From NCBI RefSeq assembly GCF_004116495.1, contig NZ_PDKC01000003.1, positions 1 through 64,000 on the forward strand: a stretch of DNA of 64,000 nucleotides, in the 5' to 3' direction. Source of the stretch: Arcobacter sp. CECT 8985. Lineage in GTDB: Bacteria; Campylobacterota; Campylobacteria; Campylobacterales; Arcobacteraceae. A program made the translations under genes and the position numbers. Under the pieces are notes generated by a model, which had not been told where the DNA came from, did not search any database, and saw nothing but the letters and a program-made list of their open reading frames with translations. This document shows positions 32,499 through 40,199 of the stretch, one piece after another; within the stretch, counting starts at the first letter, position 1, and every line of letters starts with the position of its first letter.

Positions 32499-35045
32499 CT
32501 AATCTTCCTCTTGGCAAATTAAGTTAATAATTTCTTCTTGCTTACCACAAAATTCACCGGTTTTTTCTATTAATATTAAGTCTCTTGTAAAGCCTTTTGT
32601 TGTTGCAAGTTTTGCACTTTCTATTTCTATATTAAAATCATCAAAAATTTTAGCAACATAAGCAAATAAACCTTTTTGATCTTTTGCTCGTATCTGAAGT
32701 GATGCTAAATATGGACTATGATTACAGTTTGCAATCATTTGATTCTTTTTGATAATGGGTTTTTTAACTTTTTGTTTTTTACTCATATCAAATGAATTTT
32801 CAATTATATATTTTATATGTGATAGGTCTTCATCTTCAACTTTTTCAGTAAAGGTAATTTCAAAGGCTTTTTTCTCATCATATAATTTATAAATATCCAT
32901 ACTTAATATATTTAAAAATTCCAAATTTCCAAGTAGAAATCCCAAATTTAATGGAGCTTTTCTAATAATTCGTAATACAAGTCTCTCTTCATTCATTATT
33001 TTATAAATATAATTATTTACATCTTTTGCTTTTATTGCAATATCCAAAATATCATCAGCTTTTAATCTTAAGAATATTTGATTTGATGAAATATAAGAGA
33101 TTTTTTTCTTCGTAATATATGGTAATTCTTTATATCTTTTTAGATTTTTTATTGTATTGATTTTAGCAATTCTTCTAGAACTTTCTTTTACTAAATCATG
33201 ATTTTCAAATGCAGGAAGAGATTGCAAATATAACTCTTTTAATAAAGATGAAACAGAACTATTATAGATATTTTCTCCAACTGAAGAGATATCAGCATAT
33301 GTAACAACATATAACATTTTTAAAATCTGTTTTGTTTTTACTAATCCTGTAAATGCAAGAATAATTCTTTCTGAATAAATATCTTCATTTTTAGAATAAG
33401 CACTCATCATATTGTGGTATCTTATTAGATGAGCAGCAGTTTGAATTTGATATTCATCTAATTGTAATGATGTTGCAAAATTTTTGAATAATTTTTCACC
33501 TGCTACATGGTGATCTGCTGTTCTTCCTTTTCCTACATCATGTAACAATGCAGCAAGTTTTACAATTGATTTTTCATTTGTATTTAATGACTCATAAATC
33601 TCTTTTACGTAATTATCCTGAATATTTTCAACTTTTTTTAATGTTTTTAAAGAGTGAATATCAACTGGGTGTTGGTGATACCCATCAAATTGCGGTTGAT
33701 TTATCATCTTTTTTGTAATTGGAAGAATAGTTTTAAAAAGACTTGCATTATATAAAAGCTTAATAATAGGGTAAAGATGTTCTTTTAATAAAATAGCTTT
33801 AATATTTTTCTTTAATTCTTTACTTTGTTTTTTTGGAATTTTTGATTTACTAGCAAAATATACATAAGATATATCAAAAGAGTTAACTTCTTTAGGAAGA
33901 GAGATTAACTCTTTTAATAAATTATTTAAAGCTATAGGTTTTCTATTAAATGATGTATAGATTTTACCTTTATGAAGATAAACATCTTTTTTTAATCTTG
34001 ATTGTTTTATTACTTTTATTTCTGTTTTATTCTCTAGTAAAAAACTTGTAAATCTTTTAACAATAAGGGTTGAAAAGAAGTGTATTGTATGAAGAGAACC
34101 TAATAGTTTAGCCATACATTGTCTCTCTTTTGTATATCTAGGAGTATTTACAAAACCAAGTTTTGTACTTAAATCAGGCAAAATATCAAGATTTACTTTA
34201 TCAAGCTTTTTTCTTGAGATATTATGTAAAGCATTTCTAATTTGAAAAATATATTCAAGGGAACTTCTATATCTTTTATGCTCTTCTTCATTTATTATTT
34301 TCCCTATTAACTCTTTTGTACTTTTTGCTCCATAAAGAATATATGACATCCAAAAAATCATATTTGATTCTCTTAATCCACCATATCCATCTTTTATATC
34401 TGGTTCCATTTTTAGTGGGTTTTTCAATAATCTTTGTTTATGTTCTTCTAGTTTTTCAGATACAAACTCTTTTATATCTGTTCTTCTTATACTATTTAAT
34501 GCATTTTCATATGCATACCAAAGGTATTTAGATCCATAAATTACTCTTGATTCAATAATTGCAGTTTTAATTGTAATATCTTCTTTTACAGCTTCTTCTA
34601 TATTTTTAATCTCATGAACTCTTGATCCAAGTTTTAATCCACAATCCCAAGCTAATGTGATAAATTCTTCCATCATCTCTTTTAGGTTGTACCCTTTAAT
34701 ATCTTCATATAGAATCATCAAATCAATATCAGAGTATATACAAAGTTGTTCTCTTCCATAACTTCCAAGAGCTACAAGAGTAATAGGTATTGAAGTACTC
34801 ATAGGTTGGTATGAACCAAAATATTTTCTTAAAATGTATTTGTATAAAGAGATAAGAAATTTATCAATGTGTTTTGTATTTTTTACAAAAAAATCTTTTC
34901 CACCTGTTGTATCTAAGATTACATCAATTGATTTTTTATACTCTTTAATATGATTTCTAAAAACTTTAGAAATTTCAAAATTGCTTGCATTATTTGATAT
35001 AAGTTCTTCTACTTGTAGATTAACTTCATTTAATGTATTTATCAT
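32499..35045 (-). CDS. glnD: PII uridylyltransferase/uridylyl-removing enzyme GlnD
   Basis: GlnD senses glutamine and adds UMP to, or removes it from, Tyr51 of PII proteins. The 848-residue protein has a nucleotidyltransferase domain with GSYGREQLCIYSDIDLMI near 112-130, a GlnD helical domain, an HD domain with LAALLHDVGKGRTADHH near 507-523, and two C-terminal ACT domains (about 690-760 and 775-848). Both PII proteins in this window keep Tyr51, so substrates are at hand. It overlaps the Fis-type gene by four bases and belongs to a minus-strand operon divergent from amt1. Confidence 0.95.
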   Translation of the reverse strand: MINTLNEVNLQVEELISNNASNFEISKVFRNHIKEYKKSIDVILDTTGGKDFFVKNTKHIDKFLISLYKYILRKYFGSYQPMSTSIPITLVALGSYGREQLCIYSDIDLMILYEDIKGYNLKEMMEEFITLAWDCGLKLGSRVHEIKNIEEAVKEDITIKTAIIESRVIYGSKYLWYAYENALNSIRRTDIKEFVSEKLEEHKQRLLKNPLKMEPDIKDGYGGLRESNMIFWMSYILYGAKSTKELIGKIINEEEHKRYRSSLEYIFQIRNALHNISRKKLDKVNLDILPDLSTKLGFVNTPRYTKERQCMAKLLGSLHTIHFFSTLIVKRFTSFLLENKTEIKVIKQSRLKKDVYLHKGKIYTSFNRKPIALNNLLKELISLPKEVNSFDISYVYFASKSKIPKKQSKELKKNIKAILLKEHLYPIIKLLYNASLFKTILPITKKMINQPQFDGYHQHPVDIHSLKTLKKVENIQDNYVKEIYESLNTNEKSIVKLAALLHDVGKGRTADHHVAGEKLFKNFATSLQLDEYQIQTAAHLIRYHNMMSAYSKNEDIYSERIILAFTGLVKTKQILKMLYVVTYADISSVGENIYNSSVSSLLKELYLQSLPAFENHDLVKESSRRIAKINTIKNLKRYKELPYITKKKISYISSNQIFLRLKADDILDIAIKAKDVNNYIYKIMNEERLVLRIIRKAPLNLGFLLGNLEFLNILSMDIYKLYDEKKAFEITFTEKVEDEDLSHIKYIIENSFDMSKKQKVKKPIIKKNQMIANCNHSPYLASLQIRAKDQKGLFAYVAKIFDDFNIEIESAKLATTKGFTRDLILIEKTGEFCGKQEEIINLICQEED

Positions 35046-35797
35046 GTTAATAAGTCTTTATTTATGTCAAGTTTTTTTCTTAATGTGATTCTATTTAGAC
35101 CTAAATGTTTTGCCATTTGAACCTGGGATTTATATTTTTTCTTTGCAGCTTTTAATAATGGGACTTCAAATAGATATAAAAAGTCTTTATATGAATTTTC
35201 ACCCTCTAGGTTAGTTAACATATAGTTTTCTAAAAACATAAGAATTTCATCTTCTCCAATTGTTTCAAATAAATATGAAAAATAGATAGATTTTCTTAAA
35301 CTATGGGCATTTTTACTAGTATTTAGCATAAGCTTTGAAGGAACAATTTTTTCACTTCTTAGAACTTTACTTGCTTCATTTGAAAATTTTTGAGTTATTA
35401 GTTTTAAATCATCTTCTCTTTGAGATAAAGGAGGAATACTTAATGTAATGGAAAAAATATCACTTAATTTATTGTTTAAAGATTGTGCTTCAGTTGTAGC
35501 AATTACTCTTATTTGGTTCTGTTCAATCCAAGAAATAAGAAGATCAATATTTGTAACTTGTTCAACTTTATCTATAATAATAGATTCTTTATTTAACGTT
35601 AAAACTCCATCTGTTATATCTCTTTGAAGTTCATGTGGAGTAAAAATCCTAGCTTCAGGTACAATATATTTTGCTAATGTTTTTTTTCCAACTCCTATTT
35701 CTCCATAAATAAGAGCATGTATATTAACTGATTGCAAAAGTTTTGCAGAGTTTAAAATCTCTTTTGAGTTAGGTGATACTGCAATAAATTCTTCCAT
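35042..35797 (-). CDS. Degenerate NtrC-like AAA+/Fis-type regulator without GAFTGA
   Basis: The 251-residue protein looks like a shortened sigma-54 activator. It has a Walker A-like GEIGVGKKTLAKYI (32-45), a Walker B-like SIIIDKVEQV near 73-82, a sensor-I-like IRVIATTEAQ near 96-105, an arginine region SQREDDLKLI near 125-134, and a C-terminal Fis-type helix-turn-helix (VQMAKHLGLNRITLRKKL, near 228-245). Only about 30 residues separate Walker A from Walker B, so the stretch that would hold GAFTGA is absent. It should not remodel sigma-54 holoenzyme, but may still bind DNA. Operon position with glnD points to nitrogen control. There is no receiver domain. Confidence 0.8.
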   Translation of the reverse strand: MEEFIAVSPNSKEILNSAKLLQSVNIHALIYGEIGVGKKTLAKYIVPEARIFTPHELQRDITDGVLTLNKESIIIDKVEQVTNIDLLISWIEQNQIRVIATTEAQSLNNKLSDIFSITLSIPPLSQREDDLKLITQKFSNEASKVLRSEKIVPSKLMLNTSKNAHSLRKSIYFSYLFETIGEDEILMFLENYMLTNLEGENSYKDFLYLFEVPLLKAAKKKYKSQVQMAKHLGLNRITLRKKLDINKDLLT

Positions 35798-35813: not shown

Positions 35814-36671
35814 TTATTTCTTTTTTGTAAAATATATAAAAATTGACAAAGCAACTAATATTAATGATACTCCAGCGATTAAATATAAAGCGTTAACCAT
35901 TTTATCATAATCTGCAATTGCTATTTTAAAAACAACTATTAAAGCTTCAATTGATAAAGCAATAATAATAGTAATTAAAAATTTAGTAATCATTTTTGTT
36001 TCAACTATTGAATTTTTAGCATATGATTTAAAAAATACTTCTTGTTCTAAGATTGTTTTTGCCAAATCAAATATTGCAATTCCCAATGTTAATGCAATAA
36101 TTGGTTTAAACATTAGTTCAAGTTTTATATCTTGATTCTTAAATAGATATACTCCAAAATCATATAATGAAAATAAAATAGTAATTGTTGCTAATGTAAT
36201 CATTGTAAAACCAACAAATAAATAAAAGGCTTTTGTTATACTATGAAAAGGTTTATGAAGTTCAATCAAATTTAACTTTTCTAATAAAACATCAAGTCTA
36301 AAGTCTAAAAATATAATATTGTCATCTTCTTGAATTGATACAGTTATACAGTTGTTTCTTGTTGCACTACTAATATAAGGTTTTGATATTGCAACATGAT
36401 TATTTTTTAATTCAAGTTTTGAAAGTAAATGAGATCTATCTTTATCCTTGCCTTTATCATCTGTATTATGTTTATAAATATCTGCTGAGGTTTGTATTTT
36501 TGAGTCTTTATTTACAAGATATACTAATTCTAAAGATGGAAATAAATTAAACAATTGTATAAAATTGTAATTTTTATGGGGTGATAATTTCCCTATATTC
36601 TTTAAACTTTCTTGTAAATAGTATTCTATTTTTTCTTTATTTTCTTCATAAAGATCCAAAAACTCTCTCAT
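35814..36671 (-). CDS. Membrane protein with PDC/Cache-like sensor domain
   Basis: The 285-residue protein has a soluble N-terminal domain of about 145 residues, whose pattern (FPSLELVYLVNKDSKIQTSA, then SKPYISSATRNNCITVSI and FLDFRLD) resembles PDC/dCACHE sensor domains, followed by four predicted membrane helices (about 148-172, 188-207, 226-250, 257-280). There is no signal peptide or kinase, cyclase or chemotaxis output domain. It is the first gene of the minus-strand operon with the Fis-type regulator and glnD, so it may sense a signal in nitrogen metabolism; this is inference. SD AAGGAG is clear. Confidence 0.65.
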   Translation of the reverse strand: MREFLDLYEENKEKIEYYLQESLKNIGKLSPHKNYNFIQLFNLFPSLELVYLVNKDSKIQTSADIYKHNTDDKGKDKDRSHLLSKLELKNNHVAISKPYISSATRNNCITVSIQEDDNIIFLDFRLDVLLEKLNLIELHKPFHSITKAFYLFVGFTMITLATITILFSLYDFGVYLFKNQDIKLELMFKPIIALTLGIAIFDLAKTILEQEVFFKSYAKNSIVETKMITKFLITIIIALSIEALIVVFKIAIADYDKMVNALYLIAGVSLILVALSIFIYFTKKK

Positions 36672-36692: not shown

Positions 36693-36745
36693 ATTATAGC
36701 AAAATAAGAATTCAGAGCAATAAAAAATTGTATAAAAAATAAACA
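36693..36745 (-). promoter_or_regulatory. Promoter and operator of the glnD operon
   Basis: On the minus strand a TATAAT lies at 36698-36693, 22 bases before the PDC-like gene. The 17-bp dyad TGTATAAAAAATAAACA at 36729-36745 has its centre 39 bases upstream of that -10 box. A partial relative of the motif (TGTATA at 36748) sits next to it. Confidence 0.55.
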
Positions 36746-36812: not shown

Positions 36813-36867
36813 TGTATAAAAAATAAACAGATGTAGTGTTTACAAACTTTGGTAAATATTTTATACT
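36813..36867 (+). promoter_or_regulatory. amt1 promoter and operator
   Basis: TTTACA (36839-36844), 17 bases and TATACT (36862-36867) form a good sigma-70 promoter 27 bases before the amt1 start. The 17-mer TGTATAAAAAATAAACA at 36813-36829 is identical to that at 36729-36745, 84 bases away. Its centre is 41 bases upstream of the -10 box, a position suited to an activator. Confidence 0.7.
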
Positions 36868-36893: not shown

Positions 36894-38108
36894 ATGGAAA
36901 ATTTCGCAGATGTAAAATATATATTAGATGGATTCCTATTTGTTATGATGGGACTTCTTGTAATGTGGATGGCGGCTGGATTCGCTATGTTAGAAGCAGG
37001 TTTAACTAGAACAAAAAATAATGCAACAGTATTAACAAAAAATATAGCTTTATATGGAATATCTTGTATAATGTTCTATTTTATTGGATACAACTTCATG
37101 TATGGTGATGGTTCAGCATTCATTGGAACTGGTGCAATGTTATCAGGGAAAACAAATGAAGCAATGGGTTACCCAGTAATGGCAGATTTCTTTTTCCAAG
37201 TTGTTTTTGTTGCAACTTCTGCATCGGTTATTTCAGGTACAATTGCAGAAAGAATGAAATTATGGCCTTTCTTAATCTTTACAGTAGTATTAAGTGGTGT
37301 TATTTACCCAATTCAAGGGCACTGGACATGGGGTGGAACAGGATTAGGTGGAATTATTGATGGTTTCTCTGATTTTGCTGGTTCTACTATTGTTCACTCT
37401 GTTGGTGGATGGGCTGCACTTGCTGGTGTACTTATTCTTGGAGCAAGAAAAGGTAAATATGGTAAAGATGGACAAGTAAGACCAATTCCAGGTTCAAACT
37501 TAACATTAGCTACACTAGGTACATTCATTTTATGGATGGGATGGTTTGGTTTTAATGGTGGTTCACAATTGGCATTAGGTTCAAAAACAGATATTGATGG
37601 AATTGCAATGGTTGTTGCTGATACAAATATGGCTGCAGCTGCTGGTGCTATTGCTGCTGCTATTTTAACTCAACTTATTTATAAAAAAGTTGATTTAACT
37701 ATGGTATTAAATGGTGCTTTAGCTGGTCTTGTTTCTTGTACTGCTGGACCTGATTTAGGTATGATTATTGCATTCATTGAAGGTATTATTGGTGGTGCAT
37801 TAGTTGTAGTTGCAGTTCCATTTTGGGATAAATTAAAAATTGATGATCCTGTTGGTGCTTTATCTGTTCACTTGGTTGCAGGTATTTGGGGAACGTTAGC
37901 AGTTGGTATTTTTAATCCAGAAGTTACTTTCTTTACACAATTAAAAGGTGTGGTTGTAATTGGTATATTTGTTTTCGTTAGTTCATTTATTGTATGGAAA
38001 ATCCTTGATATAATTATGGGGTTAAGAGTTGATGAAGAGACTGAGGTAAATGGATTAGATATTCATGAAACAGGTTTAGAAGCTTATCCTGAATTCAAAA
38101 GATCATAA
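36894..38108 (+). CDS. amt: Ammonium transporter 1
   Basis: The 404-residue inner-membrane channel has the eleven-helix layout of the Amt/Mep/Rh family, with GFAMLEAGLTRTKN near 26-39, FQVVFVATSASVISG near 100-114, and the twin histidines of the pore in STIVHSVGGW and LSVHLVAGIWGT. Ammonium is taken up at low concentration, and the PII protein of the next gene blocks the channel from inside. The C-terminus keeps GLDIHETGLEAYPEF, the region that contacts GlnK. SD is AAAGGAGA; glnK follows after 21 bases. Confidence 0.96.
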   Translation: MENFADVKYILDGFLFVMMGLLVMWMAAGFAMLEAGLTRTKNNATVLTKNIALYGISCIMFYFIGYNFMYGDGSAFIGTGAMLSGKTNEAMGYPVMADFFFQVVFVATSASVISGTIAERMKLWPFLIFTVVLSGVIYPIQGHWTWGGTGLGGIIDGFSDFAGSTIVHSVGGWAALAGVLILGARKGKYGKDGQVRPIPGSNLTLATLGTFILWMGWFGFNGGSQLALGSKTDIDGIAMVVADTNMAAAAGAIAAAILTQLIYKKVDLTMVLNGALAGLVSCTAGPDLGMIIAFIEGIIGGALVVVAVPFWDKLKIDDPVGALSVHLVAGIWGTLAVGIFNPEVTFFTQLKGVVVIGIFVFVSSFIVWKILDIIMGLRVDEETEVNGLDIHETGLEAYPEFKRS

Positions 38109-38468
<360 letters not shown>

Positions 38469-38500: not shown

Positions 38501-38555
38501 TGTATATTTAATATACAGAAATATACTCTAAATTATCTTGATTTAACTATATAAT
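38501..38555 (+). promoter_or_regulatory. amt2 promoter and operator
   Basis: TGTATATTTAATATACA (38501-38517) is a perfect 8+1+8 palindrome with the same TGTATA-N5-TAxACA form as the two sites before amt1. TATAAT lies at 38550-38555. The distance from dyad centre to -10 is 41 bases, the same as at amt1. No clear -35 is seen, consistent with dependence on an activator. Confidence 0.7.
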
Positions 38556-38586: not shown

Positions 38587-39774
38587 ATGGAAATAAACTC
38601 AATTTCTTATATAATTGATACACTTTTTGCAATCTTTGCAATGGTGTTAATTATTTTTATGGTTCCTGGCTTTGCTATGCTTGAAGCAGGACTTGTAAGA
38701 ACAAAAAATGTAACTGCTGTATTAACTATAAATACTTTAATCTATTGTGTAGCTTCAATGGCATTTTTATTAATTGGATATTCTATTGCTTTTGGAGATT
38801 TTGGAAGTGATACTATGAGTAAATGGGCTGCATTTATGTTCCAAATGGCATTTGTTGGTAAAGTTGTAAATATTATGAGTGGTGGAGTTAGTGAAAGAGC
38901 GAAAATAATTCCATTAACTATATTTACAGTTATTATGGCTGCAATTATTTATCCATTAATTGTAAATGTAACTTGGGGAACAAATATTTTAAAAGGAACA
39001 TTTCTTGAATTAAATATGTATGATTTAGCTGGTTCTACTGTTATTCATAGTACTGGTGGATGGGCATTACTTGCTGCAATTTTGATAATTGGTTCAAGAC
39101 ATGGTAGATATACAAAAGATGGTGCAATAAGAGTAATTCCAGCTTCAAATGTTCCTTTGGTTACTTTAGGTGCATTAATTTTATGGATTGGATGGTTTGG
39201 TTTTAATGGTGGTAGTGTTGGCTCAATTGCAAGTAAAGAAAATGCAGATGCTGTTGCATTAACAATTATGAATACAAACACAGCGGGACTTTCTGGTGCA
39301 ATAATGGTATCAATTATCATGTATTTGAAATACAAAAAATTGGATTTGACTATGATTTTAAATGGTGCTTTAGGTGGTCTTGTTGCAATTACTGCAGGTC
39401 CAGATTTATATGATATTCATACTCCAATTATTATTGGTGCAATAGGTGGAGCTTTAGTTGTTTTTGCTGTAACATTTTTTGATAAATTAAAAATTGATGA
39501 TCCAGTTGGGGCTTTATCTGTGCATTTAGTAAATGGTATTTGGGGAACTCTTGCAGTTGGAATTTTTGCAAGTAATGGCAATGACATCACTTTATTAGGA
39601 CAAGTAAAAGGAATTATTGTAGTTGGAATGTTTGCATTTATTTGTTCGTATATTGTATTATTTATAATAAATAAAATTATTCCTTTAAGAGCAACTCATG
39701 ATGAAGAAGTTCAAGGATTAGATGTGGAAGAGTGTGGTCTTGAAGCTTACCCTGAATTTAAAAGAGCATTTTAA
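38587..39774 (+). CDS. amt: Ammonium transporter 2
   Basis: This second Amt of 395 residues has GFAMLEAGLVRTKN near 28-41, twin-His motifs STVIHSTGGW and LSVHLVNGIWGT, and the PII-contact tail GLDVEECGLEAYPEF. It differs from the first where the usual FQ-F-ATSASVISG pore stretch reads FQMAFVGKVVNIMSG, and it lacks the GHWTWGG segment. Affinity or control may thus differ. SD CGGAGG is strong. A second PII gene follows after 86 bases. Confidence 0.94.
   Translation: MEINSISYIIDTLFAIFAMVLIIFMVPGFAMLEAGLVRTKNVTAVLTINTLIYCVASMAFLLIGYSIAFGDFGSDTMSKWAAFMFQMAFVGKVVNIMSGGVSERAKIIPLTIFTVIMAAIIYPLIVNVTWGTNILKGTFLELNMYDLAGSTVIHSTGGWALLAAILIIGSRHGRYTKDGAIRVIPASNVPLVTLGALILWIGWFGFNGGSVGSIASKENADAVALTIMNTNTAGLSGAIMVSIIMYLKYKKLDLTMILNGALGGLVAITAGPDLYDIHTPIIIGAIGGALVVFAVTFFDKLKIDDPVGALSVHLVNGIWGTLAVGIFASNGNDITLLGQVKGIIVVGMFAFICSYIVLFIINKIIPLRATHDEEVQGLDVEECGLEAYPEFKRAF

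Positions 39775-39842: not shown

Positions 39843-40199
<357 letters not shown>

Follow-up and report, generated by a model that had tools for sequence, protein, structure and literature searches.

The window analysed here is a 64,000-nucleotide stretch of contig NZ_PDKC01000003.1 of Arcobacter sp. CECT 8985, and our interest centers on a 251-aa gene on its minus strand, labeled ntrX* throughout, which lies among the following genes:

32499..35045, minus strand: glnD, encoding the PII uridylyltransferase/uridylyl-removing enzyme, with its ATG at 35045
35042..35797, minus strand: ntrX*, an NtrC derivative with neither receiver nor GAFTGA, made up of an AAA+ remnant and a Fis-type HTH, according to TIGR01818 and PDB folds
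35814..36671, minus strand: a membrane protein of 285 aa, heading the ntrX*-glnD operon
36894..38108, plus strand: amt1, ammonium transporter
38130..38468, plus strand: glnK1 (PII)
38587..39774, plus strand: amt2, ammonium transporter
39861..40199, plus strand: glnK2 (PII)

The overlap of ntrX* with glnD, pointed out in the initial annotation, consists of a shared 4-bp ATGA. The amt-glnK genes adjoin ntrX*, as does glnD in the Arcobacteraceae. The 285-aa membrane protein belongs to no Pfam family and has amt and ntrX* as conserved neighbors; it occurs in Arcobacteraceae and again beside ntrX* in the distant family f15, and may act as a sensor or in association with Amt.

Four elements of the ntrX* product are needed in what follows:

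35684..35704, minus strand: Walker A motif GEIGVGK (residues 32-38), present in 59/59 homologues
35567..35581, minus strand: Walker-B-like strand IIIDK (residues 73-77), with the catalytic Asp-Glu pair missing in 59/59 homologues
35063..35170, minus strand: Fis-type HTH (residues 210-245), where conservation is highest, with the recognition helix LGLNRITLRKKL
35081..35095, minus strand: NRITL, whose I (the x of NRxTL) varies together with operator positions 3-4

When aligned with its homologues, with E. coli NtrC and with the NifA-like protein encoded in the window genome, ntrX* starts just ahead of Walker A, and since this motif begins near residue 32 there is no space for a receiver domain, none of which was found. 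GAFTGA, the Walker B Asp-Glu pair, the arginine-finger motif and GNVRE were each absent from all 59 homologues, while NRxT(L/V) was present in every one. The absence of both receiver and GAFTGA loop is thus as first proposed, and so are the Walker A, the sensor-I-like motif (RVIATT) and the Fis-type HTH; the Walker-B-like motif credited to the protein is visible as well but, the Asp-Glu pair being lost in the whole set, it is a non-catalytic strand remnant. The gap between Walker A and B is indeed short, although it measures about 37 residues (lysine to Walker-B-like Asp) and not the 30 or so given initially.

Pfam returned only partial matches of ntrX* to Sigma54_activat and to a Fis-type HTH, both below cut-off, while ntrC was its best match in NCBIfam and the corresponding model, TIGR01818, was matched by 59/59 homologues. 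The structural comparison with NtrC that had been suggested was carried out on a confident AlphaFold model (pLDDT 94): the AAA+ part (residues 1-180) folds like NtrC4 (Z 16.7), followed by FlrC, NtrC1 and other bEBP AAA+ domains with Z of 16-17, VpsR being also among the matches. These first 180 residues cover about 235 target residues, hence some 55 residues have been cut out. The protein therefore combines an NtrC-type AAA+ fold with a Fis-type HTH and is best matched by NtrC models; its HTH is highly conserved, and the alignment of homologues has ten invariant columns.

Homologues of ntrX* were found in 147/200 sampled Campylobacterales genomes, a count that leaves out two further weak matches, and the frame is therefore not a chance ORF. 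In a wider Campylobacterota sample every match at E ≤1e-10 belonged to the Campylobacterales. Among named genomes the closest were Malaciobacter and other Arcobacteraceae, and the window genome is accordingly a probable Malaciobacter. The loss of several catalytic motifs could be taken as the mark of a decaying, pseudogene-like relic devoid of function, but frames intact in 147/200 genomes, the ten invariant columns, the conserved HTH and the matched operators described below leave this reading with a practically negligible probability. We conclude that ntrX* is an intact, conserved, lineage-specific descendant of NtrC minus its receiver and sigma-54 machinery.

The loss of rpoN had been put forward as the reason why GAFTGA disappeared, and a genome check for rpoN had been recommended. 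One genus of Arcobacteraceae, probably Aliarcobacter (to which butzleri belongs), does lack rpoN; the same genus, however, also lacks ntrX*, and the window genome, which has ntrX*, carries rpoN about 2 kb from nifH, so the explanation was wrong or incomplete. Across the 200 genomes, 110 had both ntrX* and rpoN, 37 only ntrX*, 38 only rpoN and 15 neither; ntrX* thus occurs independently of rpoN, and several of the 37 genomes with ntrX* but without rpoN are single-contig assemblies. The sole full sigma-54 activator of the window genome is NifA-like and lies about 10 kb from rpoN; rpoN, nifH and this activator are all found within about 10 kb (G000:C22:61435-71978; loci L001, L009 and L125). As RpoN and FlgRS, which regulate flagellar genes, are reported in a survey to have been lost from Arcobacter (PMC9321776), the rpoN of the window genome looks part of the nif cluster and seems to serve nitrogen fixation only.

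Three predicted operators and their -10 boxes were located around the amt genes and the ntrX* operon:

36813..36829, plus strand: predicted operator of amt1, exact dyad TGTATAAAAAATAAACA, starting at -81 from the ATG
36862..36867, plus strand: -10 box TATACT of amt1, beginning 32 nt past the operator end
38501..38517, plus strand: predicted operator of amt2, exact dyad TGTATATTTAATATACA, starting at -86 from the ATG
38550..38555, plus strand: -10 box TATAAT of amt2, beginning 32 nt past the operator end
36729..36745, minus strand: predicted operator TGTTTA-N5-TATACA, in position to regulate the operon at 36671-32499
36693..36698, minus strand: TATAAT, 30 nt downstream of the preceding operator

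The two dyads upstream of amt1 and amt2 had already been noticed and are exact; the one at 36729-36745 is a third. Its position, together with the TATAAT, ahead of the membrane protein-ntrX*-glnD operon makes autoregulation likely, and the homologous operon promoters at two further loci (L049 and L050) also have the site and the -10. In the whole 2.79-Mb window genome, exact TGTATA-N5-TAWACA occurs at eight places, seven of them at nitrogen genes: two at amt1 and one each at amt2, glnA (85 bp upstream), urtA, eutB and puuE, the allantoinase gene, which is followed by an allantoicase gene. The eighth lies within a transporter gene and was taken as chance. The motif had been read from the three amt sites, and without these 4/5 remaining dyads are at nitrogen genes; at urtA the -10 spacing seen elsewhere is missing.

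We then gathered the upstream regions of glnA, amt and glnK across the Campylobacterales and sought the site within 200 bp. In ntrX*-positive genomes TGNNTA-N5-TANNCA was present in 34/49 promoters of glnA and 66/76 of amt, in most cases between -80 and -90, against about 1% expected from shuffled sequences, and in ntrX*-negative genomes in 0/19 glnA and 0/4 amt promoters. The site was missing from 15/49 glnA promoters of ntrX*-positive genomes (4/5 in family f14). Among 104 distinct site-bearing promoters, 89 had a TAnnnT starting 31-32 nt past the operator (shuffles: mean 9.8, maximum 17), and just one contained a sigma-54-like -24/-12 element. When real sequences served as control, site and -10 coincided at 6/993 other promoters of the fetched loci, namely at three ntrX* operons, one nitrate transporter-like and two outer-membrane porin-like genes, the last two labels having been read by eye. 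The nitrate transporter-like gene with operator and -10 box is found at L140:860-2140, and nitrate uptake may be included in the ntrX* regulon of some species.

The predicted target promoters are thus of the sigma-70 type, and ntrX* would act independently of sigma-54. That ntrX* might still be linked to sigma-54, for instance by joining NifA in mixed rings as an accessory subunit, could be argued from the rpoN and NifA-like activator of the window genome and from the retained Walker A; given the 37 genomes with ntrX* but without rpoN, the -10 boxes in place of -24/-12 elements and the loss of GAFTGA and arginine finger from all homologues, such a role is highly improbable, and sigma-54 dependence proper was rejected on the rpoN-less genomes together with the promoter structure. 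The same promoter geometry bears on the sign of regulation, which is not readable from sequence as such. A GAFTGA-less NtrC has been reported to repress some genes in Caulobacter (PMC10274813), and ntrX* could likewise repress nitrogen genes; an operator centered about 52 bp upstream at fixed spacing from the -10 is nevertheless an activator position and not a roadblock, so repression appears quite unlikely and we infer that ntrX* activates.

The operators can be tied to ntrX* by the covariation of half-site positions 3-4 with the x residue of NRxTL, a motif of the recognition helix. Where the protein carries NR(I/A)TL, TA is found at these positions (TGTATA) in 77/94 half-sites, whereas with NRNTL they read AT, CC, CT or GT, with TA in 2/78; V-type proteins have mixed half-sites. 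The relation is visible even between two species of one genus (g38), since the protein of G041, from the otherwise N-type family f6, reads NRITL and both amt genes of this genome carry TGTATA-N5-TATACA, whereas in its congener G118 NRNTL goes with TGCCTA-N5-TAATCA at amt. Perhaps three independent changes, some of which may be gene replacements, underlie this covariation, which offers a natural residue-operator code for a Fis-type HTH. It also weighs on the possibility that the dyads are bound by some other transcription factor, with ntrX* just co-occurring with the nitrogen regulon, a reading to which the location of ntrX* inside an unrelated housekeeping operon in several families lends some weight. 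We regard this as unlikely, because the 6-5-6 layout suits an NtrC-type HTH, the half-site follows the NRxTL residue, and none of the sampled glnA and amt promoters of ntrX*-negative genomes has the site. Consensus sites of NtcA-like factors read GTA-N8-TAC and those of GlnR-type factors TGTNA-N7-TNACA; a CRP-type (NtcA-like) or GlnR-type factor was rejected, as spacing and letters do not fit and the half-sites follow the ntrX* recognition helix.

A second gene accompanies ntrX*. In 16 fetched loci ntrX* is adjoined by a gene of 210-258 aa with a PAS domain at the N-terminal end and a remainder matching NtrB, here called eroded NtrB. The copy of the window genome is not linked to ntrX*:

G000:C11:101484-102167: eroded NtrB of the window genome, assigned by NCBIfam and fold

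NR(II) was its sole NCBIfam match at E ≤1 (1.1e-5; residues 118-190 vs. 209-285), and other members match NtrB weakly. Among PDB entries, the modeled C-terminal domain (pLDDT 92) is best matched by the NtrB CA domain 1r62 (Z 14.0, rmsd 2.7, 118 residues); other kinase CA domains lie at most 1 Z below it, so that the fold identifies a CA domain and the sequence identifies NtrB. A comparison with E. coli NtrB by hhalign gave a weak PAS match and nothing else, and a PDB sequence search gave no firm match. From the NCBIfam match, the weak matches of other members and the modeled fold, the eroded NtrB appears to descend from NtrB. H-box, G1 and G2 motifs were found in 0/34 members, hence it cannot be a kinase of known type.

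The eroded NtrB is present in 144/200 genomes, 142 of which also have ntrX*; ntrX* stands alone in five, the partner alone in two, and 51 genomes have neither. Six of these seven exceptions are assemblies less than 92% complete, and the losses of the two genes coincide in separate families; Fisher's p for the co-occurrence is 4e-39, a value that overstates independence because the sampled genomes are related. This nearly perfect co-occurrence is newly described here. Gene neighborhood fails as proof of function for families f4, f5, f9, f16 and f20-f22, in which the genes sit in housekeeping operons, ntrX* being flanked by slyD and fabD and the eroded NtrB lying next to an rpoD-like gene. The slyD-ntrX*-fabD order is fixed in many families, in a tol-pal type operon distant from nitrogen genes (L054-L058, L060-L063, L072-L075). 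Unlinked copies of the eroded NtrB are mostly found directly 3' of an rpoD-like gene of about 620 aa (L097-L114), and genomes of family f14 have a second, divergent paralogue (L115, L116).

The initial annotation had proposed a relic NtrC acting at sigma-70 promoters of nitrogen genes, and the comparative evidence (regulon, conservation, -10 spacing, covariation) strongly supports this proposal as a prediction from sequence. We consider ntrX* to be very probably a sigma-70 nitrogen regulator derived from NtrC, which would bind the predicted 6-5-6 operators, its own operon included, and may receive input from the eroded NtrB. Presumably as a dimer, ntrX* would bind TGNNTA-N5-TANNCA (TGTATA-N5-TATACA in the window genome), centered some 52 bp ahead of the inferred start, and would activate housekeeping promoters, namely those of its own operon with glnD, of amt-glnK and glnA, and of the ethanolamine, allantoin and urea-uptake genes; ATP may act as ligand only. 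The input would probably come from the eroded NtrB, which most likely senses PII/GlnK by direct contact and would thereby free or block ntrX* with no phosphotransfer. PII is suggested by the adjoining amt-glnK and, in Arcobacteraceae, glnD, by the occurrence of PII in 169/200 genomes of the order and by the CA domain of NtrB, on which PII docks in enteric bacteria; signaling by contact is suggested because no phosphotransfer residue remains. Taken alone, this step of eroded NtrB and PII is somewhat favored, the chances being slightly better than even. A similarly cautious preference applies to the broader picture, in which the whole NtrB-NtrC system would have turned, in most of the order, into a phosphorelay-free pair relaying the PII/GlnK state by contact to sigma-70 RNA polymerase with the old regulon kept.

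In the open-access literature we found no description of the ntrX*/eroded NtrB pair and no account of transcriptional control of nitrogen assimilation in free-living Campylobacterota (Arcobacteraceae and relatives). For nitrogen assimilation in these bacteria, the present analysis puts forward a regulator with its operator and target promoters, together with a likely partner, and each of these can be tested directly. TyrR and VpsR are other bEBP-derived regulators that work at sigma-70 promoters with no need of sigma-54; their ligands and regulons are different, and they keep sensory N-terminal domains while ntrX* has none. With canonical NtrC (NR-I; TIGR01818) ntrX* shares the AAA+/Fis-type HTH ancestry, the 6-5-6 dyad and, as predicted, a regulon of glnA, amt-glnK and alternative nitrogen sources; unlike it, ntrX* is without the receiver, the GAFTGA loop, the catalytic Walker B pair and the arginine finger, would act at sigma-70 promoters, and has TGNNTA-N5-TANNCA as predicted operator vs. 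TGCACC-N5-GGTGCA. The eroded NtrB resembles NtrB (NR-II; PRK11073; 1r62) in its PAS domain and NtrB-type CA fold but differs from it in the loss of H-box, G1 and G2 (0/34).

A parallel in promoter type comes from Rhodobacter capsulatus and Caulobacter, whose NtrC proteins are GAFTGA-less and active at sigma-70 promoters, the Caulobacter protein being needed for glnA (glnBA) expression (PMC10274813 and references therein). As in these bacteria, ntrX* lacks GAFTGA and its target promoters are of the sigma-70 type. Their NtrC, however, retains the receiver and a phosphorylatable Asp of importance for activation, and an NtrB kinase is present (PMC10274813), whereas ntrX* and its partner are both without phosphotransfer parts and aspartyl phosphorylation has no counterpart in them. 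If the proposed mechanism is true, the pair would clearly exemplify a two-component system whose halves have both lost phosphotransfer and which yet does the same job.
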